Shown piece by piece: positions 1,755 to 35,939 of a stretch of DNA of 48,152 nucleotides. The notes below the pieces were generated by a model. It worked only from the letters and a program-made list of their open reading frames with translations. It did no database searches and was not told the origin of the DNA. This stretch comes from an uncultured Flavonifractor sp. (lineage in GTDB: Bacteria > Bacillota > Clostridia > Oscillospirales > Oscillospiraceae). Location of the stretch: the NCBI GenBank assembly GCA_947346365.1, contig CANAAV010000020.1:1-48152 (forward strand), in the 5' to 3' direction. The position numbers and the translations under genes were made by a program. The first letter of the stretch is position 1. The number at the start of each line of letters is the position of its first letter.

Positions 1755-4190
1755 TTACTTTTTAGATCGGACGATCAAATTGACCAGCTTGTTTTTGACC
1801 AAAATGACCTTTACAGTCTCCATCCCCTCGGTAAACTTCCGCACTTTGGGGTCCTTCATGGCCTCGGCCACCACGGCGTCCTGCTCGCTGTCCAAGGGCA
1901 CAGTGATGGTCGCCCGCAGCTTACCACCCACCTGGACGGCCATGTTCACCTCAGCAGCCACGGTCTTGCTCGCATCATAGGCGGGCCAGGCCTGCTGGCA
2001 GGCCTGGCCGCCCCGCTGCGCGGCAAAGCCCAGGCTCTCCCACAGCTCTTCCGCCATGTGGGGGGCGAAGGGGGAGAGCATCAGCAGTACAGCCGCATAA
2101 TCCCCCCGGGAACATCCGTTTGCATAGAAGTCGTTGACCAGCGCCATCAAAGCGGCAATGGCGGTGTTGAACTTCATGGCCTCAATGTCGTCCGCCACCT
2201 TTTTGATAGTCTTGTGAATGGCGCTTTCATTTGCGGCGGAGTACGCCCCACTGTCTGCCAGCTGCTCCGAGAGATTCCACACCCGGTCCAGAAAGCGCTT
2301 GCAGCCCTTGACCGCCTTGGCCGACCAGGCGGCGGCCTTCTCAAAGTCGCCGATGAACATGATATACAGCCGCATGGTGTCCGCGCCAAACTCTGCTACC
2401 ACATCGTTGGGGTTGACCACGTTGCCCCGGCTCTTGCTCATCTTCTCGCCGCCCTCGCCCAGAATCATGCCGTGGCTGGTGCGCTTGTGATAGGGCTCCT
2501 TGGTGGGAACTACGCCGATATCATAGAGGAACTTGTGCCAGAAGCGGGAGTAGAGAAGGTGCAGGGTGGTGTGTTCCATACCGCCGTTGTACCAGTCCAC
2601 CGGGGACCAGTAATCCAATGCCTGTCGGGAGGCCAGGGCCTGTTTGTTGTGGGGGTCCATATACCGCAGGAAATACCAGCTGGAGCCCGCCCACTGGGGC
2701 ATGGTGTCCGTCTCCCGCCGGGCGGGGGCGCCGCAGTGGGGACAGGTGGTGTTCACCCAGTCCGCCATTTTGGACAAAGGACTCTCCCCTGTGTCGGTAG
2801 GCTCATAGGAATCCACCTCAGGCAGCAGCAGAGGCAGCTGCTCCTCCGGCAGGGGGACCCAGCCGCACTTGTCGCACCACACCATGGGGATGGGCTCTCC
2901 CCAGTACCGCTGGCGGGAGAACACCCAATCCCGCAGCTTATAGTTCACCTGCTCATGGCCGATGCCCTTTTCCTCCAGCCACTTTGTAATGGCAGGGATG
3001 GCCTGCTTAACCGTCAGGCCGTTGAGAAACTCCGAGTTAACCAAAACGCCGGTGTCGTCCTTGGCGGTAAAGGCCTGCTTCTGCACGTCCTCCCCGCCGG
3101 CAACCACTTCGATGATCTCACAGCCGAACTTTTTAGCAAAGGCCCAGTCGCGGGTATCGTGGGCGGGCACCGCCATGATGGCCCCCGTACCGTAGGAGGA
3201 GAGCACATAGTCCGAGATAAAAATGGGAATCTCCCGCCCGTTGACGGGGTTGACCGCCCGCACGCCCCGGAGCTCCACGCCGGTTTTCTCCTTGTCCGCG
3301 GCAAGCTCCGTGCGCTCAAAGTCGCTCTTCCGGGCGGCGGCGGCCACGTACTCCTCCACCGTGCTCAGGTTCTCCAGCTTGTCCGCCCACTGCTTCACAT
3401 AACGGTGCTCCGGCGAGATAACCATGTAGGTGGCGCCGAACAGGGTATCCGGCCGGGTGGTAAACACCACAATGTCGTCCCCGGTGGTGGCCTTAAAGGT
3501 GACCTCAGCGCCCGTGGAGCGTCCGATCCAGTTTTTTTGCTGGGTCTTGACCCGCTCGATGAAGTCCAGCTCGTCCAAATCGTCAATCAGCCGCTGGGCA
3601 TACTCGGTGATCTTCAGCATCCACTGACTCTTCTCCCTGCGGACCACAGGCGCGCCGCAGCGCTCGCACACGCCGTCCACTACCTCCTCGTTGGCCAGCA
3701 CGCACTTGCAGGAGGTGCACCAGTTCACAGGCATCGTGGTTTTATAGGCCAGGCCTTTCTTATACAGCTGGAGGAAGATCCACTGGGTCCATTTATAGTA
3801 TTCCGGATCGGTGGTGTTGACTACCCGGTCCCAGTCAAAGGAGTAACCCAGCATTTTCAGCTGCTTGGTAAAATTTTCAATATTATCGTGGGTGACCTTG
3901 GCGGGATGGATGTGGTTTTTAATGGCGTAGTTTTCCGTGGGCAGGCCGAACGCGTCGTATCCCATAGGGAAAAGGACATTATAGCCGTCCATGCGCTTTT
4001 TCCGCGCCACCACGTCCATAGCGGTGTAGGGACGGGCGTGCCCCACATGCAGGCCTTGTCCGGAAGGGTAAGGAAACTCTACCAGGCCGTAAAATTTTGG
4101 CTTGCCGCTCCCCGTCTCGGTGGCAAAGGTTTTTTCCTGCTGCCATTTCGCCTGCCACTTAGGCTCAATGGATGCAAAATCGTACTTCAT
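1755..4190 (-). CDS. leuS: leucine-tRNA ligase
   Basis: The 811-residue class I aminoacyl-tRNA synthetase charges tRNA-Leu with leucine. The HIGH-type ATP motif is HVGH at about residue 48 ([18 protein letters not shown]), a zinc-finger insert has paired CxxC (CTSCKC, CERCG), the CP1 editing domain contains [17 protein letters not shown], and the KMSKS loop is [15 protein letters not shown] near residue 580. Length is typical for bacterial LeuRS. The ATG at 4190 is chosen because AAGTGGGAG lies just upstream and [12 protein letters not shown] is the usual family start; the frame is open further upstream. A promoter is visible 40 nt upstream. I found no T-box leader (no GGTGG acceptor-type motif) in the short upstream region. 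Confidence 0.98.
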
Positions 4191-14056: not shown

Positions 14057-14220
14057 TAGGCCTTGTTTAATCGTTAGCAATGCGTCCAGCGGCGAGAAAA
14101 TTTTTCGCCGGACAGGGCAAATTTTCGCAGGACCACTTCGTGTATCGCAAGAAAATTTAACGCGGTATGGCGGAAAAAGGCCCGCCGCTTGGCATGTTGA
14201 CGATTTTTAAACAAAGCCTA
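14057..14220. repeat. dispersed repeat copy R2 (MITE-like, inside the frl cluster)
   Basis: A 164-bp element running from TAGGCCTTGTTTAATCGT (14057) to an imperfect inverted end finishing AAACAAAGCCTA at 14220, with TA at both outer ends. The core has GCAAATTTTCGCAGG (14117-14131) and GCAAGAAAATTTAACGC (14147-14163), both repeated exactly in R3. Its right end supplies the TAG stop of frlB. Just before it, at about 14006-14045, is a GC-rich hairpin. Confidence 0.75.
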
Positions 14221-27169: not shown

Positions 27170-28342
27170 GTGAAAGAAGCGTTAATTTCCAAGGCAGAAG
27201 CCCTTGCGCCACAGCTGTACCAGCTGTCCGATTACATCTGGGACCATCCAGAGGTGGGCTACCATGAGGAGAAGGCCTGCCGGGTGCTGACCCAGCGGCT
27301 GGCTCAGGATGGGTTCCAGGTAGAAACCGGGGCAGGCGGCCTGCCCACCGCCTTCCGCGCGGTCTACCAACAGGGTCAGGGCGGCCCTTCCATCGGACTG
27401 CTGGCAGAATATGACGCTCTGCCCGGACTGGGGCACGGCTGCGGCCACCATATGCAGGGCCCCGCTTTGCTCCTGTGCGCCGAGGTTCTTCAGGCGGTGC
27501 TCAGGGAGCAGTCCTACCGCCTGGTATTTTACGGCACGCCCGCTGAGGAGGTGGCTCCCGCCAAGCAAACCATGTGGGACAACGGCTGCTTCCGGGATAT
27601 TGATATTGCGCTGATGGTGCACGGCTCGGTCAATACCGCCTGCGATGAGAGCTCTTTGGCCAGTATGAACTATACCGTTACCTTCCACGGCGCCGCCGCC
27701 CACCCCGGCCTCTTTCCGGAACGGGGCCGCAGCGCCTTCGGCGCTCTCCAGCTGGCATTCCACGGGATGGATATGATGCGTGCCCACGTCACCGACGACA
27801 CCCGCCTGCACTACGCCTGTACACAGCCTGGCACGCCCTCCAACGGCATTCCGGCCGAGGCCTCGGGTAAATTCCTGCTCCGCTGCCGCAACTCCTTTTC
27901 TTATCTTTTAGAGCTCCGGGACCGCTTTTTTAATGTGGTCAAGGGCGCGGCGCTGATGACCGGCACTACCTATGAGATTGAGGAGGGGGGCGTCTGGCCC
28001 AATAAGATCCCCGCGCTGGTGCTCAATGAAAACGTGATGTCCAATGCTGCGGCGGTGGGCTGTCCAGAGATTGCTCCGCCCCGTCTGCGCACCGGCACCA
28101 CTGATTTTGCCTCGGTTCTCCAGCACGTGCCCGGCGTCTGCCTGCGTATTAAGATGGTAGACGCGCCCACCACCTCCCACACGCCGGAATTCGCCGCCGC
28201 GGGTAAAAGCGAAATGGCCCACACCGCCATTCTCAAATCTGCCCAAGCCCTGGCCTGCTCCTGCGCGGACATCATCTGCGACCCAGAACTGCTCCCCCGG
28301 ATTCAGGCAGACTATCTCCAACGACAAAAGCTATGCCAGTAA
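27170..28342 (+). CDS. M20-family metal-dependent amidohydrolase/peptidase
   Basis: The 390-residue enzyme belongs to the M20D group (aminobenzoyl-glutamate/N-acyl amino acid hydrolases). HPEVGYHE near residue 24, LLAEYDALPGLGHGCGHHMQG near 80 (metal ligands), GTPAEEVAPAK near 123 (catalytic Glu) and FHGAAAHPG near 165 (dimerisation lid) are all present, with a C-terminal DAPTTSHTPEF. It probably cleaves an amide bond in an imported dipeptide or N-acyl amino acid. No signal peptide, so it acts in the cytoplasm. The start is GTG at 27170 with AAAGGACGG upstream; the nearby ATG at 27150 is out of frame. It is divergent from the peptide importer. Confidence 0.88.
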   Translation: MKEALISKAEALAPQLYQLSDYIWDHPEVGYHEEKACRVLTQRLAQDGFQVETGAGGLPTAFRAVYQQGQGGPSIGLLAEYDALPGLGHGCGHHMQGPALLLCAEVLQAVLREQSYRLVFYGTPAEEVAPAKQTMWDNGCFRDIDIALMVHGSVNTACDESSLASMNYTVTFHGAAAHPGLFPERGRSAFGALQLAFHGMDMMRAHVTDDTRLHYACTQPGTPSNGIPAEASGKFLLRCRNSFSYLLELRDRFFNVVKGAALMTGTTYEIEEGGVWPNKIPALVLNENVMSNAAAVGCPEIAPPRLRTGTTDFASVLQHVPGVCLRIKMVDAPTTSHTPEFAAAGKSEMAHTAILKSAQALACSCADIICDPELLPRIQADYLQRQKLCQ

Positions 28343-28412
28343 TCCGCTTTTCCCAGGCTCATCATCCCGCCAGAAGCGCCCGGATCAACTTTTATCAAAC
28401 CGTTTAAAGCGC

Positions 28413-28457
28413 AAAACGCGCGGAAATCTGCCGCCATAGCAGAGCTCCGCGCGTTTT
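28413..28457. terminator. bidirectional terminator between two convergent hydrolase genes
   Basis: AAAACGCGCGGA (28413-28424) and its complement (28446-28457) form a 12-bp stem, extendable inward through TCTGC/GCAGA. It has T runs on both strands. Confidence 0.85.
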
Positions 28458-28501
28458 CTTGCAGAACATTTTTTACAGACGGGCCGGAAAAATCCCGCGC
28501 C

Positions 28502-29782
28502 TCACCCGGCAGGCTGCGCACCCTGCGCCTGATCCACCACCTGGCCGTCCTTCATGACAAAAGCGCAGTGGGACAGGGCCTCGTGGTCCTCCAGCAGATC
28601 CCGGTCCCAGCCCGCCAGATCGGCCGTCTGACCCGGGGCAATCGAACCCAATTCCGGACGCTGGAGAATTTTTGCATTGTCGCTGGTGGCGGCCCGCAGC
28701 GTCCGCAGGGCCGGAATTCCGCTGTCCCTCCAGGCCTTAAATTCCCGCCAGCAGTCATAGTTGGGATAGAGGCTGACAATATCTGTGCCATACCCCACCA
28801 GCAGATTTGTATGGAGAATGGCGTCCACCAGCACCTGCCGGCCCTGGCGGAGCTGGGCGGCATACCGCAGCAGCTTTGCCCGGAATTCCGGCGTCTTCCT
28901 GTCCAGCATGGCCCGGTCCTCCCGGATGATCTCCTCATAGGGCACAAAGGTGGGCACCACATATGTCCCGTGGGCCAGGAGCTTTTCCAGCGCCGCCCGG
29001 TCAATCATAGAGGCGTGCTCCACACCGGTAATGCCCAGTTCCGCCAGCAAAGAGACCATCTCGGCGGTATAGACATGGGCCGTGGTGGGCTTGCCCATGT
29101 GCCGGGCCACGTCCAGAACCGCACGGATCTCGTCCTCCTCCATCTGCATGTCCTCCGGGCCGTCGTTGGGGGAGGCAAAGCCGCCGGTGACCATCAGCTT
29201 CACCACGTCAACCCCGTACTTGATCTCCCGCCGGGCCGCCGAGCGGGCAAAATCCGCCCCGCTGCCGATATTGGGGTACATCCCCTGCAACGCGTCGGCC
29301 AGGTGGGGATTCCCCCGGAAATAGGTCGAGGCGTCGGTATGGCAGCCCGGCGTGCTCACGGCATGGGCGACCACCACCAGCCGGGAGCCTTGGAACATTC
29401 CGGCGTCAATCGCCCGCTTCACATCCAGCGCGCCGAAGGTAGAAATCTTGCCGCCGGCGTGGCGCACCGTGGTAAAGCCCCGCCGCAGGGACTGTCCGGC
29501 ATTGTACAGCAGCGTCAAGGTCTTCATCTCGTCGGAAGCCAAAAAACGAGCCCCCGGCCCGCCGGTCTGGTCGGAGAGAAAATCAAAATGTACATGGGCG
29601 TCGATGAGCCCCGGCGTCACCGTCAGATGGCTCAAATCCAGCACCTGCGTCCCCCTGGGGCAGGGCAGCTCTTGTCCGGCCTGGACAATGCGGCCCTCCC
29701 GCACCAAAATTCCTACGTTTTTCTGCAATTCCTCGTGGACCCCGTCAAAACAGGCGCCGCACCTGACGTAATATTCATCCAT
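28502..29782 (-). CDS. imidazolonepropionase-like metal-dependent amidohydrolase
   Basis: The 426-residue TIM-barrel hydrolase has the metal HxH in TPGLIDAHVHFDF near residue 65, the carboxylated-lysine region VDVVKLMVTGG near 185, then HVYTAE and GVEHASMID with further His ligands, and YGTDIVSLYP near 315 with the catalytic Asp. N- and C-terminal beta strands form the usual composite domain (GQTADLAGWDRDLL). This group includes Xaa-Pro and Xaa-Arg/Lys dipeptidases and imidazolonepropionase relatives; the exact substrate is unknown. The ATG at 29782 has AAAGGAG upstream. It is convergent with the M20 gene. Confidence 0.85.
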   Translation of the reverse strand: MDEYYVRCGACFDGVHEELQKNVGILVREGRIVQAGQELPCPRGTQVLDLSHLTVTPGLIDAHVHFDFLSDQTGGPGARFLASDEMKTLTLLYNAGQSLRRGFTTVRHAGGKISTFGALDVKRAIDAGMFQGSRLVVVAHAVSTPGCHTDASTYFRGNPHLADALQGMYPNIGSGADFARSAARREIKYGVDVVKLMVTGGFASPNDGPEDMQMEEDEIRAVLDVARHMGKPTTAHVYTAEMVSLLAELGITGVEHASMIDRAALEKLLAHGTYVVPTFVPYEEIIREDRAMLDRKTPEFRAKLLRYAAQLRQGRQVLVDAILHTNLLVGYGTDIVSLYPNYDCWREFKAWRDSGIPALRTLRAATSDNAKILQRPELGSIAPGQTADLAGWDRDLLEDHEALSHCAFVMKDGQVVDQAQGAQPAG

Positions 29783-30746: not shown

Positions 30747-32156
30747 TTACGCTCCATCCTCCGGCTTTAGCTTCCGGTAGAGGGCGGAGCGGTGTACGCC
30801 CAGCAGCCGGGCCGCCTGGGTTACGTTTCCTTCACAGCGCTCCAGCGCTTTCCGGATATGGAGCCGCTGAAATTCCGCCGTCGCCTGAGCCAGGGGGAGC
30901 AGCGGCACTTCCCCGTCTTCCGGAAGGCCAGAGCCGGACGGCTCCGGGAGAAGGGACTCCTCCGTGATGGGGCCCTTCAGGGAGATGATATCCGACCGGG
31001 ACACCGTAGCCAGCCGCTCAATCAAATTTTTCAGCTCCCGGATGTTCCCCGGCCAGGAGTACTGGATCAAATAGTCCTGGGCCTGCATGGACAGTTTCTT
31101 CCCGGTATCATACTTTCGGTTATAGCTGTCTAAAAACTGATCCGCCAGCACCAGAATGTCCTCTTTCCGCTCCCGAAGGGGTGGGATATGGATGGGGATG
31201 ATATTCAGCCGGTAAAACAGGTCCTCCCGGAACAGGCCCTGAGACACCATCTTCCGCAGATTCCGGTTGGTCGCGGCGATAATCCGCACGTCGGTCTGGC
31301 GCGCGGTCTGCCCGCCCACTCTTCGGAACTCACCGGAATCCAGCACACGCAGCAGCTTGGGCTGGAGCAGCAGGGGCAGCTCGCCAATCTCGTCCAAAAA
31401 CAGCGTGCCCTGGTCCGCCAGCTCAAACAGCCCCGGCTTCCCGTTTCGGTCCGCTCCGGTGAAGGAGCCCCGCTCGTAACCAAAAAATTCCGCCTCCATC
31501 AGCTCCATGGGGATTGCCGAACAGTTCACCGGCACAAAAGGCCGTTCCCGCCGGGTGCTGTTCTGGTGAATGTACCGGGCCAGTACCTCCTTGCCTACTC
31601 CCGGCTCTCCCGTAAGCATCACGCTGCTGTCCCGCTGGGCCACCTCCTCCGCCACGGAAAAAATATGCAGGCTGGCCGGGCTGCGGGCCACAATCGCCTG
31701 TTTCAGCCCTGGGTGGCTGGGTTCTACTCTATCCTCCAGCAGGCTGCGCTCCTGATAAATCACATTCATTTTGTGGATCAGGTCCTGCTCCGTCTCGCTG
31801 CGGTTAATAATCAGCTCTATTTCTCCCGCCTCATCGAACATCGGGCAGCTATTAGAGAACATGACCTCATTGGTTTTCAGCGCCTTGACCGATACCAGCG
31901 CCTGCCGGCCGCTGCGCCGGACAAATTCTGAGGCGGAGCGCTCTGTAAAGCCCTGACTGATCAGCAGACTCTTGTGCCGCCCCACCATCTCCTCCCTGCT
32001 GCACCCCAGATCCCGGCAGACGGCGGAGCTCATAAAGACAATGCGGTCCTCCCGGTCAAAAATCAACACATACCCCAGGTAATCATCCATCAGCCGGGAT
32101 ACCAGCTTGATATACGCCTGCGGCTGTTCCCCTCTCATTCGGTAAAAATCCAGCAT
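30747..32156 (-). CDS. sigma-54-dependent transcriptional activator (PAS, AAA+, Fis-type HTH)
   Basis: The 469-residue enhancer-binding protein has an N-terminal PAS sensor at residues about 20-140 (YVLIFDREDRIVFMSSAVCRDLG). The AAA+ domain (about 165-395) has Walker A GEPGVGKEVLARYIH, the sigma-54 contact loop GSFTGA (a variant of GAFTGA), Walker B GTLFLDEIGELP and the arginine-finger region FREDLFYRLNIIPIHIPPLRER. The C-terminal HTH at about 440-469 is ALERCEGNVTQAARLLGVHRS. It needs ATP hydrolysis to open sigma-54 promoters, triggered by a small ligand on PAS. The ATG at 32156 follows GGAGGGA. It is divergent from the BKACE operon, which has a perfect sigma-54 promoter, so that operon is its target (inference). 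Confidence 0.95.
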   Translation of the reverse strand: MLDFYRMRGEQPQAYIKLVSRLMDDYLGYVLIFDREDRIVFMSSAVCRDLGCSREEMVGRHKSLLISQGFTERSASEFVRRSGRQALVSVKALKTNEVMFSNSCPMFDEAGEIELIINRSETEQDLIHKMNVIYQERSLLEDRVEPSHPGLKQAIVARSPASLHIFSVAEEVAQRDSSVMLTGEPGVGKEVLARYIHQNSTRRERPFVPVNCSAIPMELMEAEFFGYERGSFTGADRNGKPGLFELADQGTLFLDEIGELPLLLQPKLLRVLDSGEFRRVGGQTARQTDVRIIAATNRNLRKMVSQGLFREDLFYRLNIIPIHIPPLRERKEDILVLADQFLDSYNRKYDTGKKLSMQAQDYLIQYSWPGNIRELKNLIERLATVSRSDIISLKGPITEESLLPEPSGSGLPEDGEVPLLPLAQATAEFQRLHIRKALERCEGNVTQAARLLGVHRSALYRKLKPEDGA

Positions 32157-32192
32157 GACATTCCCTCCTGCCCGCCCCGCTCCCTTCAAAGT

Positions 32193-32239
32193 GCGGGAGA
32201 TCTCCCGCCCATTATACCACAGCACGGCGATTGTCGCAA
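32193..32239 (-). promoter_or_regulatory. sigma-A promoter of the activator gene with a 16-bp palindrome at its start point
   Basis: Minus strand TTGCGA (32234-32239), 17 nt, TATAAT (32211-32216). GCGGGAGATCTCCCGC (32193-32208) is a perfect palindrome placed over the transcription start and early leader; it may be an operator for autoregulation or for another factor. Confidence 0.65.
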
Positions 32240-32250
32240 TTTCAAGTCAG

Positions 32251-32291
32251 TGTCTTATTTTTGCAACTCCATCTGTCTTATAAATAAGACA
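32251..32291. promoter_or_regulatory. candidate enhancer sites for the sigma-54 activator
   Basis: TGTCTTATAAATAAGACA (32274-32291) is a perfect 8-2-8 palindrome, and a half-site TGTCTTAT lies 23 nt upstream (32251-32258). They end about 80 nt before the sigma-54 promoter, the usual place for activator binding. Confidence 0.65.
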
Positions 32292-32372
32292 TCCCCATCT
32301 GTTATTTTCCCCGGGCCCGTCAAAACCTATTTAACCGCCTTTTACCGCGGCTTTTTTCACTGCCGCGCAGTT

Positions 32373-32389
32373 TTGGCACACGGTTTGCA
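32373..32389 (+). promoter_or_regulatory. sigma-54 promoter of the BKACE operon
   Basis: TTGGCACACGGTTTGCA matches the -24/-12 consensus TGGCAC-N5-TTGC exactly, with GG and GC at correct spacing. Transcription would start near 32400, and the first gene starts at 32427 with AAAGGAAG. Confidence 0.9.
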
Positions 32390-32426
32390 CTGTTTAGGGG
32401 TAACCTCTTTGAAAAGGAAGTGCCAT

Positions 32427-33269
32427 ATGGAAAAAACATTGAAGTTCTGCATTGACCATTTCAGCTTTGCCACCCCCAGGCGCATGGAAGCCGCCGCCAT
32501 TATGCGAGGCCTGGGCTTTGTCACGGGCGACACCTCGGCAGACCGTTCCACCCATTTTATTTTCGACAACGTCCTCACCGAGATCTGTTACCGTAAAGAG
32601 GGAGAACCCGCCGTATGGCAGGGCAATTCCATCGATGTGGGCAAAATGCCCCGGGTGCACTCCTACCGCCTGAGCAACGCCGGCCTGGACCCCAATACCG
32701 CCCGCAACGCGCTGCTGTCCGCCGGCATCCCCGGCGTGGGCCCCATCAATGATCCCTCCAGCCAGCGGGTAAAGTACGGCGCCGTTCAGGGCACCGGCCG
32801 CTATCAGACCTTTTTCATCACCGGTCTGGAGCCCTTTACGGACATCCTCTTCGGCGTGACCACCCAGCTGACAAAAGAGCTTATTGTCAATAACCCCACA
32901 AAGTACCCACACGTCAACGGTGCCAAGCGAATCTCTGAGCTGACCTTCTACTGCCCCACCAGCGAGGTTTTTGCCGCCGCGGAGGAGTCCATCACAAAGC
33001 TCTATGCCGCTCTGGAGCCCGTCACCGACAAGGGCCGCAACCTGGACACCGTCCGTCTGCTGGACCGGGACAGTTACGCGGCCGAGTTTGGCTGTGAACC
33101 CCCTGCGGAGCACCATTTCCCCGCCGTATCCGCCATGTACGCTGGCTGTGACCTGGAATACGTCCGGGAGGCCGCCGCCGACACCGGCCTGAACGTCTTT
33201 GACCGCGGCGGAAAGGTCTATGTGGATACCCGGGACGTCATCGGCTGCTTCAGCGTCTTTGCCCAATAA
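32427..33269 (+). CDS. VOC-like (glyoxalase-fold) protein of the sigma-54 operon
   Basis: The 280-residue protein opens LKFCIDHFSFATPRRMEAAA, followed by LGFVTGDTSADRSTHFIFDNVLTEIC, which resembles the glyoxalase-like VOC opening with the His ligand in a DH-F motif. A second repeat may start at ISELTFYCPTSEVFAAAEES (about residue 175). I do not recognise a specific enzyme. It could be a ring-cleaving or lyase-type enzyme, an epimerase, or a binding protein acting before the beta-keto acid cleavage enzymes (inference). The ATG at 32427 is chosen because GAAAAGGAAG lies just upstream and the sigma-54 start point is at about 32400; the frame is open further upstream. Confidence 0.65.
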   Translation: MEKTLKFCIDHFSFATPRRMEAAAIMRGLGFVTGDTSADRSTHFIFDNVLTEICYRKEGEPAVWQGNSIDVGKMPRVHSYRLSNAGLDPNTARNALLSAGIPGVGPINDPSSQRVKYGAVQGTGRYQTFFITGLEPFTDILFGVTTQLTKELIVNNPTKYPHVNGAKRISELTFYCPTSEVFAAAEESITKLYAALEPVTDKGRNLDTVRLLDRDSYAAEFGCEPPAEHHFPAVSAMYAGCDLEYVREAAADTGLNVFDRGGKVYVDTRDVIGCFSVFAQ

Positions 33270-33287
33270 ACCGTCCTTCAACCTTTC

Positions 33288-33450
33288 AGAACCTGTATTC
33301 ATAACCGGGGGATGCTGGATTGGTGGAGGATTTTGCCGTCAATCAAGGCAAATTTTCGCAGGCATCCTGACGGATGGCAAGAAAATTTAACGCAGAGTGC
33401 CGGCAAAAGGGACGCCAAGACAGCGTCAAACGGTTGTGAATACAGGTTCT
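33288..33450. repeat. dispersed repeat copy R3 with different ends
   Basis: A 163-bp element bounded by AGAACCTGTATTCATAAC (33288) and its near-exact inverted copy ending 33450. The core repeats GCAAATTTTCGCAGG (33348-33362) and GCAAGAAAATTTAACGC (33377-33393) exactly as in R2. It sits between the first two genes of the sigma-54 operon. Confidence 0.75.
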
Positions 33451-33483
33451 CATTTTATAAATACAAAAAGGAGTGTCGAACCC

Positions 33484-34503
33484 ATGTCTTTGGAGCAAAA
33501 CTTTATCAACTGGGAAATGGTCCGTAAGTACAGCGAGCAGTATGGCCACATCGTGCCCAACGTCCGTTTTGGAAAGGATGCCGTGGTGCCCGACCGCTCT
33601 CAGTTCGTACTGGGCGACATCAACATTCAGCCCAAGTGGGAGATTCCCAACAAGATCATGATTAATACCACCATTTGCGGCGGCTTCTTCAGCAAAGACA
33701 CCAACCCCAACATTCCCATCACCACCAAGGAGATCTATCAGGCCGCCCGCGAAATCTGCCTGGCCGGGGCCCCCATGCTCCACGTCCACGTGCGGGACGA
33801 CAACGGCTATAATACCCTGGACCCCGACAAATTCCACGAGGTTCTCGACCCCATCCGCGAGGAGTTTCCTGATGTCATCATCGACGGCTGCCTGGTGGCA
33901 AACCGGGAAGGATATTGGGAAAAGATGGAGATGCTCCTCAAGGAGCACCTGTTCGACATCACGCCCATCAACGCCACTTCCAACTATGCCGGCGACCGAC
34001 TTTTCACTCCCTATCCCCATCATATCATCGAAAAGGCCGAGCTGGTGATGAAATACAATGTAAAGCCCCACATCGCAGTATTTACCGACGGCGACGTGGA
34101 CACCGCCTATCGTTATCTCATCAGCACCAAGCTGGTTGACCCCCCCTATGACTTTGGCATTCTGCCCGCCCTGCCTGGATGTAGCTCTATGAACACCCCT
34201 GAACGGATGCTGGAGGGACTCATGCGCATGAACGGCCTCATTCAGGAGGCCGCCCCCGGCGCCCACGTGATCGTCTGCTGCTCCGGCCGGGCCTCCAGCT
34301 ATCTGGCCGCCGCCTCTATGCTGCTGGGCCTCCACGTCCGGGTGGGAATGGAAGACACCCCCTGGATGTGGCCTCACAAGGACGAGCTCATCACCAACAA
34401 CGCCAAGATGTTTACTATGTTCAAGACTATGGCTGAAATGCTGGGCCGCGAGGTCTACACCCCGGCAGAGTACCGCGCGGAAATGAATATTTTCAAGAAA
34501 TGA
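33484..34503 (+). CDS. divergent beta-keto acid cleavage enzyme (BKACE/DUF849)
   Basis: The 339-residue TIM-barrel protein resembles BKACE enzymes, which use acetyl-CoA to split a beta-keto acid into acetoacetyl-CoA and a shortened CoA ester with one zinc. Seen: IPITTKEIYQAAREICLAGAPM, the zinc pair in LHVHVRDDNG (near residue 100) and LHVRVGMEDTPWMWPH near 285. Differences from the family: an extra 50 or so N-terminal residues, IIDGCLVAN where an STGG loop is expected, and HIAVFTDGD where ELEIFDTG is expected. It may therefore act on an unusual substrate. AAAGGAG precedes the ATG at 33484. Confidence 0.82.
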   Translation: MSLEQNFINWEMVRKYSEQYGHIVPNVRFGKDAVVPDRSQFVLGDINIQPKWEIPNKIMINTTICGGFFSKDTNPNIPITTKEIYQAAREICLAGAPMLHVHVRDDNGYNTLDPDKFHEVLDPIREEFPDVIIDGCLVANREGYWEKMEMLLKEHLFDITPINATSNYAGDRLFTPYPHHIIEKAELVMKYNVKPHIAVFTDGDVDTAYRYLISTKLVDPPYDFGILPALPGCSSMNTPERMLEGLMRMNGLIQEAAPGAHVIVCCSGRASSYLAAASMLLGLHVRVGMEDTPWMWPHKDELITNNAKMFTMFKTMAEMLGREVYTPAEYRAEMNIFKK

Positions 34504-34730
34504 CCCTTCCCACAGAAAAACAAACAAACCCTTTCCGCACGCCGCCGCATCCGTTGGCACAGTGGAGTCTTCCCCGGTAACGGAGTCATGCGTTTGGCCA
34601 AAACGGTATCACCTGTGCGTTTTCTCTCTCTTTCACCCATCGGCTGGGGGCGGGCGGCGGACGCGGCTTTCTGCCAGGCCCGCCGTCCGCCCCGTCCGCT
34701 GGGAAACGCAATACATACTGGGAGGGCTCT
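34504..34730 (+). other. 227-nt gap inside the sigma-54 operon
   Basis: No gene seen. It contains GC-rich inverted segments (about 34648-34700, GGGCGGCGGAC against GTCCGCCCC) that could attenuate or protect mRNA between the two BKACE genes. TTGGCAC at 34554 lacks the -12 element and is not a second sigma-54 promoter. Confidence 0.4.
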
Positions 34731-35042
34731 ATGGAAAATTTTTTTGAAATGCTGATGGTTGTCTGCTTCGGCATCTCCTGGCCTCTGAATATCCGCAAGC
34801 TGCTTCAGTCCAGGACCGCCAAGGGCACCAGCGTACTCTTTTATTTCTTCATTTGGATTGGCTATATCTTTGGCCTCGCCAGCAAGAGCATCAAAGCCGC
34901 CCACGGCGGCGTTACCCCGGCTTACGTCTGGTTTTTCTACATTCTCAACACGGTAATGGTCTCCTGCGGCATCCTGCTCTATTTCCGCAACAAGGGACTG
35001 GACGCGGCCCGGGAGATGGAACAGAAGGAGGGTGGAGCATGA
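34731..35042 (+). CDS. PQ-loop/SemiSWEET-like small membrane protein
   Basis: The 103-residue protein has three membrane segments. The first carries CFGISWPLNIRKLLQSRTAKGTS, matching the PQ-loop pattern (Pro-Leu in place of Pro-Gln, then K-S/T-x-x-x-G-x-S) of SemiSWEET half-transporters, which dimerise to form a sugar or metabolite channel. The second segment is VLFYFFIWIGYIFGLASK, and the third YVWFFYILNTVMVSCGILLYF. It lies between two BKACE genes and overlaps the second by 4 nt, so it is probably the uptake or export partner of this pathway (inference). GGGAGG precedes the ATG. Confidence 0.7.
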   Translation: MENFFEMLMVVCFGISWPLNIRKLLQSRTAKGTSVLFYFFIWIGYIFGLASKSIKAAHGGVTPAYVWFFYILNTVMVSCGILLYFRNKGLDAAREMEQKEGGA

Positions 35043-35848
35043 AAAAACTGATTATCTGCTGCGCCCTCACCGGCTCTCTGCCCACCAAGGAGCAAAACCC
35101 CCATGTGCCCATCACACCGGATGAGATTGTAGCCGATGCTCTGGCCGTCTATCAGGCCGGGGCCTCTATCGTCCACATTCACGCCCGGGACGCGCAGGGC
35201 AAAAACTGTCACGACCGCGGCATCTTTCAGGAAATCCACACCAAGCTCAAGGCCCAGGCCCCGGAGCTCATTGTCCAGCTCTCCACCGGCGGGCGGGCAG
35301 GTCAGGGCTTTGACAGCCGGAACGCCTGCCTGTTCTCCAATCCGGAGATGGCCAGCCTCTGCACCGGCTCCACCAATTTCCCCACGGGAATTTACGCCAA
35401 TGACATGGAGCTGGTCATTCAGCTGGCTGAGATGATGAAGCAGAGGAACATCAAGCCTGAGCTGGAAATTTTCGACACCAATATGGTCGGCGCCGCCGTC
35501 ACCCTGGAACAGATGGGGCTGCTTCAGCCCCCCCTTTACTTCGACTTTGTCATGGGCGGCCGGAACGGCCAGAGCGCCGACATCCGCCAGCTGGGCTATC
35601 TGGTGAGCATGCTGCCCGCCGGCTCCCAGTGGTGCGCCTCCGGCATCGCCGCCAACCAGGTCAACACCATGCTCATGGCCATTGCCGCCGGCGGACATGT
35701 CCGGGTGGGACTGGAGGACAACCTCTACCTCCGCCGGGGCGTCAAGGCCACCAATGTGGAGCTGGTGGAGCGGGTGGTGCGCATCGCCAGCGAGGTCAAC
35801 CGGGAGATTGCCACCCCCGCCGAGGCCCGCGCAATGCTGGGCCTGTGA
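35039..35848 (+). CDS. beta-keto acid cleavage enzyme (BKACE/DUF849), canonical type
   Basis: The 269-residue protein has the full BKACE signature: ICCALTGSLPTKEQNPHVPITPDEI at the start, zinc ligands in IVHIHARD (near residue 47), QLSTGGRAGQG near 80, PELEIFDTNMVGAA near 145, and GGHVRVGLEDNLYLRRG near 225. The family converts a beta-keto acid plus acetyl-CoA (or another CoA ester) to a new keto acid and CoA ester; Kce of lysine fermentation is one member. Which acid is used here cannot be told from sequence. It starts inside the PQ-loop gene (ATGA overlap, GGAGGGTGGAGC upstream) and ends the operon. Confidence 0.92.
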   Translation: MKKLIICCALTGSLPTKEQNPHVPITPDEIVADALAVYQAGASIVHIHARDAQGKNCHDRGIFQEIHTKLKAQAPELIVQLSTGGRAGQGFDSRNACLFSNPEMASLCTGSTNFPTGIYANDMELVIQLAEMMKQRNIKPELEIFDTNMVGAAVTLEQMGLLQPPLYFDFVMGGRNGQSADIRQLGYLVSMLPAGSQWCASGIAANQVNTMLMAIAAGGHVRVGLEDNLYLRRGVKATNVELVERVVRIASEVNREIATPAEARAMLGL

Positions 35849-35897
35849 CGCGTTCCCCCATTCACGCTTTGGCGCGAGCTCTCTGAGACAGTTTCGT

Positions 35898-35919
35898 CCC
35901 GGGTCTTTTAAGACCCGGG
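35898..35919 (+). terminator. terminator of the sigma-54 operon
   Basis: CCCGGGTCTT (35898-35907) pairs with AAGACCCGGG (35910-35919), followed by GCGCTTTTCTCC. Confidence 0.85.
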
Positions 35920-35939
35920 GCGCTTTTCTCCTCAAACGG

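Follow-up and report, generated by a model that had tools for sequence, protein, structure and literature searches.

An operon under predicted sigma-54 control with two unequal BKACE-family proteins in an uncultured Flavonifractor: a possible branch of an undescribed catabolic pathway

Introduction

Which compound is degraded by an operon that places two unequal members of the β-keto acid cleavage enzyme (BKACE) family behind a sigma-54 promoter, and are both of these proteins cleavage enzymes at all? The question is raised by positions 30,747 to 35,919 of contig CANAAV010000020.1 (assembly GCA_947346365.1), a stretch of 48,152 nucleotides (the window) from an uncultured Flavonifractor sp. whose genome is 85.8% complete. 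Four genes, P0001, P0002, P0004, and P0003, follow one another on the same strand, with an activator gene, P0005, diverging from them; the initial annotation had regarded them as a self-contained unit, composed of a VOC-like protein, two BKACE enzymes, and a PQ-loop protein, for the catabolism of an amino-acid-derived or carnitine-like keto acid. The analysis described here leads to a partly different picture: with a probability of roughly 0.5, the operon forms an inducible, sigma-54-dependent arm of a catabolic pathway that has not been described, is probably anaerobic, and is spread over two or more loci of the genome, the best reading of its end being that an amino-acid-derived β-keto acid would yield acetoacetate/acyl-CoA and a C4 dicarboxylate.

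Control of the Operon

The promoter anatomy can be observed directly. The sigma-54 box TGGCACACGGTTTGCA (32374..32389, plus strand) is an exact match to TGGCACNNNNNTTGCW, the only one in the window, where 0.08 would be expected and 8 of 100 shuffled sequences contained one, so that the perfect promoter of the initial annotation is confirmed; matches with one mismatch are less telling (four found, 2.1 expected), and the weight of the box therefore rests on its exactness and its place. The divergent gene (P0005; 30747..32156, minus strand, from Pfam and its translation, its start being placed at 32156 because of a GGAGGG upstream) encodes a sigma-54-dependent activator in which the AAA+ domain (Sigma54_activat, 228 bits), the lid domain, and the Fis helix-turn-helix domain (HTH_8) all exceed their Pfam cut-offs; the PAS domain (PAS_9) reaches 24.5 bits, just under its cut-off of 27, and GSFTGA occupies the place of the GAFTGA motif. 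The PAS-AAA+-Fis architecture first proposed is thus upheld, and the genome, for which a lack of sigma-54 had been named as a possible objection, has an RpoN gene (at C12). With a sigma-54 promoter, an AAA+ activator, and RpoN all present, the anatomy of these genes gives good support to their prediction as a sigma-54 catabolic unit.

Upstream of the box lie a half-site, TGTCTTAT (32251..32258, plus strand, from a repeat search), which occurs three times in the window, always inside the gap between the activator gene and P0001, and a palindrome with perfect 8-bp arms, TGTCTTATAAATAAGACA (32274..32291), which ends 82 bases before the box. The palindrome pattern, picked post hoc once the palindrome had been noticed, matched one place in the window with up to three mismatches (0.08 expected; 7 of 100 shuffled sequences had a match). 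A palindrome and a half-site upstream of a sigma-54 box are the usual layout of an activator site, and the two elements are a possible, putative site of this kind. For the activator gene itself, a consensus scan alone gives a sigma-70-like candidate promoter, TTGCGA-17-TATAAT (32211..32239, minus strand, 10/12 positions).

The Two BKACE-Family Proteins

Both P0003 and P0002 belong, as had been claimed, to the BKACE family PF05853 (317.4 and 161.8 bits, cut-off 24.8); that both are cleavage enzymes is plausible for P0003, which keeps the catalytic Glu, and doubtful for P0002, which has Ala198 in its place.

P0003 (35039..35848, plus strand; PF05853 and residue table) aligns to the solved structure 2y7d with E=9.8e-60 and retains the equivalents of the zinc ligands H46, H48, and E230, of E143, R226, and D231; by sequence it is a canonical BKACE, predicted to carry out acetyl-CoA-dependent cleavage of a β-keto acid, and it remains under the cut-offs of all four NCBIfam BKACE models that it matches (three equivalogs and one exception). 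Its residue 14 is Leu. In the available text of one source, Glu14 contacts the amine in Kce and Trp stands at this place in triacetate acetoacetate-lyase (TAL) (PMC10470551); since P0003 has neither residue, nothing points to lysine or to phloroglucinol; Leu14 speaks against a cationic substrate of the lysine type and, more weakly, against a carnitine-like one. The genome has a separate BKACE with Glu14 at C8, in an operon resembling lysine fermentation by eye; on this ground lysine fermentation was rejected as the role of the unit studied here. Two further BKACE loci may be recorded here. At G000 C14 (L012 7217-7927), the C-terminal piece of a BKACE lies just upstream of the N-terminal piece, so that either one gene has been broken or rearranged or a pair of incomplete genes is present. 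A metagenome-assembled genome (MAG) from horse faeces (Clostridia bacterium) contains a second sigma-54 unit (L025 2197-7073) with a PAS-AAA+-Fis activator, an exact sigma-54 box at 3723, a 3-hydroxyacyl-CoA-dehydrogenase-like protein, a BKACE with Trp14, and a transporter-like protein; control of a BKACE by sigma-54 is therefore not unique to the window.

P0002 (33484..34503, plus strand) is N-terminally extended, and its losses of residues are observed in a whole clade. In a residue table and tree of 16 rows aligned to 2y7d (seven canonical, eight close long-clade rows, and the distant G914), all rows keep the zinc ligands, Arg226, and Asp231; the place of Glu143 is held by Glu in 7/7 canonical rows, as it is in three solved chains with alignments that reach it (2y7d, 3fa5, and 3no5), by Ala in 8/8 close long rows, and by Thr in G914. 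All long rows (9/9) carry Phe at position 14, and the close ones have Cys at Ser82 and Pro at Thr106 (8/8 each), where canonical rows have Ser or Thr. A branch supported at 100/100 separates the long rows from the canonical ones, G914 being on a long branch; this protein, a long BKACE relative, was too diverged to be counted with the close rows, which amount to about five lineages since near-copies are included (pairs at 88-89%, and two nearly identical plasmid rows). A change of Tyr145 to Phe was dropped as a diagnostic of P0002, Phe being found in 7/7 canonical rows too.

The expected function of the missing Glu follows from BKACE15, in which, according to the available sections of the report, E171 is the catalytic base, E171L abolished activity, and E171D left 5% (PMC11961710); E171 corresponds to Glu143 of Kce because Tyr173 of BKACE15 is equated with Tyr145 of Kce in the accessible part of another (PMC12871164). 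DUF849 groups described as not BKACE exist, one of them with decarboxylation activity, in the text available from PMC4922564; the family also includes, by name, cis-epoxysuccinate hydrolases. Given the loss of the Glu base, the inactivity of E171L, and the existence of such groups, P0002, although it belongs to the fold family, probably does not have the standard BKACE activity.

A scan of 84,980 species genomes with P0002 by exact peptide patterns, whose reach is limited to close relatives, returned a single locus, in the horse MAG. Clade members in G970 and G1006, genomes outside the phylum-level P0001 matches, stand alone, adjoining cupin-type regulators (by eye). On plasmids of Rhizobium, Sinorhizobium, and Agrobacterium, P0002 finds proteins with 41-45% identity over 99% of its length among the ten listed of 31 matches; three of the 31 matching records entered the residue table (L073, L074, and L075), and these are long DUF849 proteins without the catalytic-base Glu which share the residue set of the long clade. 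All three are annotated as 3-keto-5-aminohexanoate cleavage protein, and on this evidence the clade is probably misannotated; their neighbours are acyl-CoA ligases, together with CoA-transferases in two of the three and hydrolase and ABC transporter genes in one. Some of the remaining plasmid matches, for example, those of Fusobacterium and Acetoanaerobium, could well be BKACEs of the usual kind, as may be true of others.

The P0001 Family and the Second Locus

P0001 (32427..33269, plus strand; 280 residues) belongs to a family for which neither Pfam nor NCBIfam has a model. It matches no Pfam family at E≤10 and a single NCBIfam model, precorrin-8X methylmutase, at E=0.094 (12.4 bits, cut-off 311), which the distant copy in G863 also touches (E=0.049, far under the cut-off); no credible relative was found among solved structures, the other family members give weak, unrelated Pfam matches only, and a search with hhalign for an internal repeat was negative. 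Its designation as VOC-like is not sustained, neither VOC models nor solved structures giving a detectable match; H11 and E52 in an apparently β-α-β-like N-terminus, judged by eye, are compatible with VOC membership.

Relatives of P0001 occur at C30 in the same genome, twice in the horse MAG, in the genomes G930 and G1224, and in G863; P0001 shares 62% identity with those of G930 and G1224, 51% with the C30 paralogue, and 26% with the one in G863. The surveys, whose samples overlap one another, found carriers in one of 60 genomes and one of 391 genomes of the class (in both cases its own), in two of 394 of the order (its own and G863), in three of 398 of the phylum (its own, G930, and G1224), in one of 99 relatives of the horse MAG (the horse MAG itself), and in two of 149 relatives of G930 (G930 and G1224); viral contigs and plasmids yielded none. 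The gene combination is rare in the genomes sampled.

The context shared by these relatives is directly visible and takes from the operon the self-contained character first ascribed to it. At C30 a BKACE, PatB, the P0001 paralogue, a fused TRAP permease, and a TAXI receptor form one run; MmgE/PrpD, TtdA, TtdB, FumC, and malic enzyme are encoded next to it in the divergent direction. In the horse MAG, one contig carries, in order, a P0001-type gene, a long BKACE, RidA, PatB, a second P0001-type gene, a second long BKACE, and a PQ-type protein at the contig end; a second contig has an orthologue of P0003 (74%) that starts at most two bases from the contig end, followed by MmgE/PrpD, TtdA, TtdB, and FumC, and the two are likely genomic neighbours. 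A third has a BKACE of the C30 type (76%), a thiolase, a succinyl-CoA:acetate-type CoA-transferase, a GntR-like regulator (by eye), and malic enzyme. In G930 and G1224 the order is LysR, PatB, the P0001-type gene, TRAP, TAXI, and an FAH-family hydrolase, then 3-oxoacid CoA-transferase A/B, TtdA, TtdB, and MmgE/PrpD, with malic enzyme next in G1224; TRAP, TAXI, and TtdB in both, and LysR and the CoA-transferase in G1224, were named by eye. A search of the G930, G1224, and G863 genomes for BKACE gave no match.

The PatB assignment rests on TIGR04350 (cut-off 340), which the C30 and G930 proteins exceed with 404.4 and 400.1 bits; the copies of the horse MAG and G1224 align to that of C30 at 85 and 64%. 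The C30 and G930 proteins also group closely together (863 and 858 bits), the runner-up among 249 genomes scoring 467. The four PatB copies (L010 8637-9833, L009 2387-3580, L030 10162-11352, and L031 10259-11458) have YHHF where the PatB proteins of G1103 and G1117 have YYPF, a possible change in the substrate site. Among solved structures, the C30 MmgE/PrpD protein is nearest to IDS-epimerase (IDS being presumably iminodisuccinate) and cis-aconitate decarboxylase.

A Proposed Pathway

Enzymes of the FAH and BKACE families alike cleave a C-C bond adjacent to a carbonyl group. That one type replaces the other in clusters which otherwise resemble each other suggests a β-keto or β-diketo acid at the C-C cleavage step, FAH and CoA-transferase apparently standing in for the BKACEs in the G930/G1224 lineage; the fumarase-type genes and malic enzyme suggest that one product is a C4 dicarboxylate, CoA-transferase and thiolase suggest that the other is acetoacetate, and PatB, with RidA in the horse MAG, makes an amino-acid precursor plausible. 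This context keeps alive the amino-acid-derived half of the substrate originally suggested, the carnitine-like half being disfavoured by Leu14, if less strongly than lysine. The reactions, their order, the lack of oxygen, and the assignment of both loci to one pathway are reconstructed as follows: the TAXI-TRAP transporter would import an amino acid or similar acid; the PatB-type pyridoxal-phosphate enzyme, with RidA in the horse MAG, would take off nitrogen or cut the side chain; the intermediate would then be the substrate of the P0001 family and of the BKACE-like protein without Glu; using acetyl-CoA, the canonical BKACE (P0003 or its C30 cousin) would split a β-keto acid to yield acetoacetate plus an acyl-CoA; and MmgE/PrpD, the fumarase-type enzymes, and malic enzyme would handle the C4 dicarboxylate. 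More tentatively, and short of being probable, this would be a new pathway, rare in the phylum as sampled, in which the P0001 family and the Glu-less clade carry out some C-C or isomerisation step on an amino-acid-derived β-keto/diketo acid, and in which BKACE and FAH plus CoA-transferase are interchangeable modules; the long clade, present on rhizobial plasmids too, would then represent a new DUF849 activity.

Several observations weigh against this reconstruction. The window operon has neither PatB nor fumarase genes nor a proven transporter; what ties it to C30 is paralogy together with the horse MAG, in which the key contigs are unjoined, and P0001 is nearer to the G930 copy than to its own paralogue. 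No sigma-54 box with 10/11 core matches was found in 16 kb of C30, so that the two loci are probably regulated differently. The 214-nt gap behind P0001 and the repeat that it holds (see below) may uncouple P0001 from the downstream genes. Known carriers of the family are few, five genomes, of which one is distant (G863, whose homologue adjoins amidohydrolase-like genes, without PatB, by eye). The swap of FAH for BKACE is argued from context in draft genomes (G930 and G1224, 98 and 89% complete), and the FAH protein, whose solved relatives span hydrolases, decarboxylases, and isomerases, might carry out another step.

The value of the reading lies in a defined gene set for a pathway without an assigned substrate, including an enzyme family that no Pfam or NCBIfam model covers, and in an apparent exchange of modules which narrows the chemistry enough for a substrate screen to be designed.

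Alternative Explanations

The best surviving alternative, which we consider unlikely, is that both BKACE-family proteins are true BKACEs and perform two successive Claisen cleavages, giving fumaryl-CoA and acetoacetate from, for example, a fumarylacetoacetate- or fumarylacetate-like acid. In its favour are TtdAB-type genes at C30 and in the horse MAG, G930, and G1224 (TtdB by eye in the last two), FumC at C30 and in the horse MAG, malic enzyme at C30, on another contig of the horse MAG, and in G1224, thiolase and CoA-transferase adjoining a horse BKACE, and the FAH-family hydrolase and CoA-transferase of G930; moreover, both window proteins keep the zinc ligands, Arg226, and Asp231. Against these stand the Ala at the place of the base in all eight close long rows, in the light of the inactive E171L variant as reported in the available part of PMC11961710, and the lack of an evident anaerobic source of such an acid, no oxygenase having been noticed among the cluster genes, where no dedicated search was made.

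It is improbable, furthermore, that the compound broken down is an amino acid with a succinyl group linked through S or N, such as 2-succinocysteine, with PatB freeing the thiol or amine part, MmgE/PrpD freeing or epimerising the C4 acid, and the fumarases consuming it, the BKACEs being a side branch. The family score of the C30 PatB (404 bits, above 340), the two solved relatives of MmgE/PrpD, and the fumarase-type genes and malic enzyme close by all fit this proposal, which however leaves the BKACEs (own genome and horse MAG) and the FAH and CoA-transferase (G930 and G1224) without a role; the YHHF of four PatB copies, where two others have YYPF, adds that the substrate may not be a cysteine conjugate.

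An equally small chance attaches to an ordinary BKACE operon of a known kind, for lysine, carnitine, or phloroglucinol. P0003 is canonical by sequence, and the horse MAG does possess another unit with sigma-54 activator, exact box, dehydrogenase, and BKACE; yet lysine is apparently served by the separate Glu14 BKACE at C8 (genes named by eye), P0003 has Leu14 rather than the Glu of lysine or the Trp of phloroglucinol TAL, it is under the cut-offs of the four matched NCBIfam models, and among the window ORFs no phloroglucinol or carnitine enzyme was noticed by eye, without a dedicated search. PatB resembles C-N lyases, on which account mimosine/pyridone degradation was considered and set aside, the literature available offering no gene cluster for comparison.

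Other Features of the Operon

The gaps between the four genes are 214 nt (P0001-P0002), 227 nt (P0002-P0004), and -4 nt (P0004-P0003), so that tight coupling is limited to the last pair. Between P0001 and P0002 lies a palindromic, MITE-like repeat of 163 nt (33288..33450, recognised by its inverted ends and folding), whose inverted ends of 36 nt are 81% complementary and whose surrounding 180 nt have a folding energy of -86.5 kcal/mol; because partial copies exist in the window (14113-14186, 74 nt at 77%) and at L012 (1-26, 26 nt at the cut edge), the element probably belongs to a dispersed kind. The corresponding gaps in the horse MAG are 13 and 86 nt (the two pairs of P0001-type gene and long BKACE) and 6 nt (second long BKACE to PQ-type gene); the gene order is thus conserved, and the repeat in the P0001-P0002 gap is probably a later insertion.

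P0004 (34731..35042, plus strand; 103 residues) has three hydrophobic segments, seen as three maxima in the hydropathy profile alone, and possibly is of PQ-loop/SemiSWEET type. The firm PQ-loop label cannot be kept: P0004 itself has no match to PF04193, and its horse MAG orthologue (69% identity) reaches E=0.07 (13.3 bits, cut-off 22), DUF2427 scoring slightly better. The closing terminator is recovered 3' of P0003 as an intrinsic-terminator-like hairpin (35895..35922, plus strand; 12 pairs, 9 of them GC, and a T-rich tail); hairpins of this kind across the region, six against 6.7 expected, show no excess over chance. Adjoining the unit, at 27170-29782 of the window, are an amidohydrolase of the M20 type and a second amidohydrolase, whose nearest model, Xaa-Pro dipeptidase, it matches under the cut-off.

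Comparison with Known Systems

No open-access paper that the literature searches turned up was recognised as an account of this gene combination, in line with the initial opinion that it lies outside described pathways. Kce shares its family with P0003, including the zinc ligands and the catalytic Glu, Arg, and Asp; it differs in the amine-contacting Glu14, replaced by Leu in P0003, no lysine genes were noticed adjoining the latter, and the genome has a separate Kce-like gene at C8. The anaerobic phloroglucinol pathway of Clostridium scatologenes, as presented in the available part of PMC10470551, is similar in clustering a BKACE (TAL), a CoA-transferase, and a thiolase and in passing acetoacetate to fermentation, whereas the present system has PatB, RidA, MmgE/PrpD, fumarase-type enzymes, and the P0001 family, and Leu rather than Trp at position 14.

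For P0002, a precedent of a BKACE homologue with altered chemistry is BsfD, the DUF849 enzyme of flavophos synthesis (9zsc), in which, in the accessible text, the authors stress a Phe for Tyr145 (PMC12871164); that Phe is present in the seven canonical rows too, and the change in P0002 is instead Ala for Glu143. The long DUF849 proteins of rhizobial plasmids also resemble P0002, its residue set being common to the three records examined; these have acyl-CoA ligases as neighbours, and the search of the plasmid collection found no relative of P0001.

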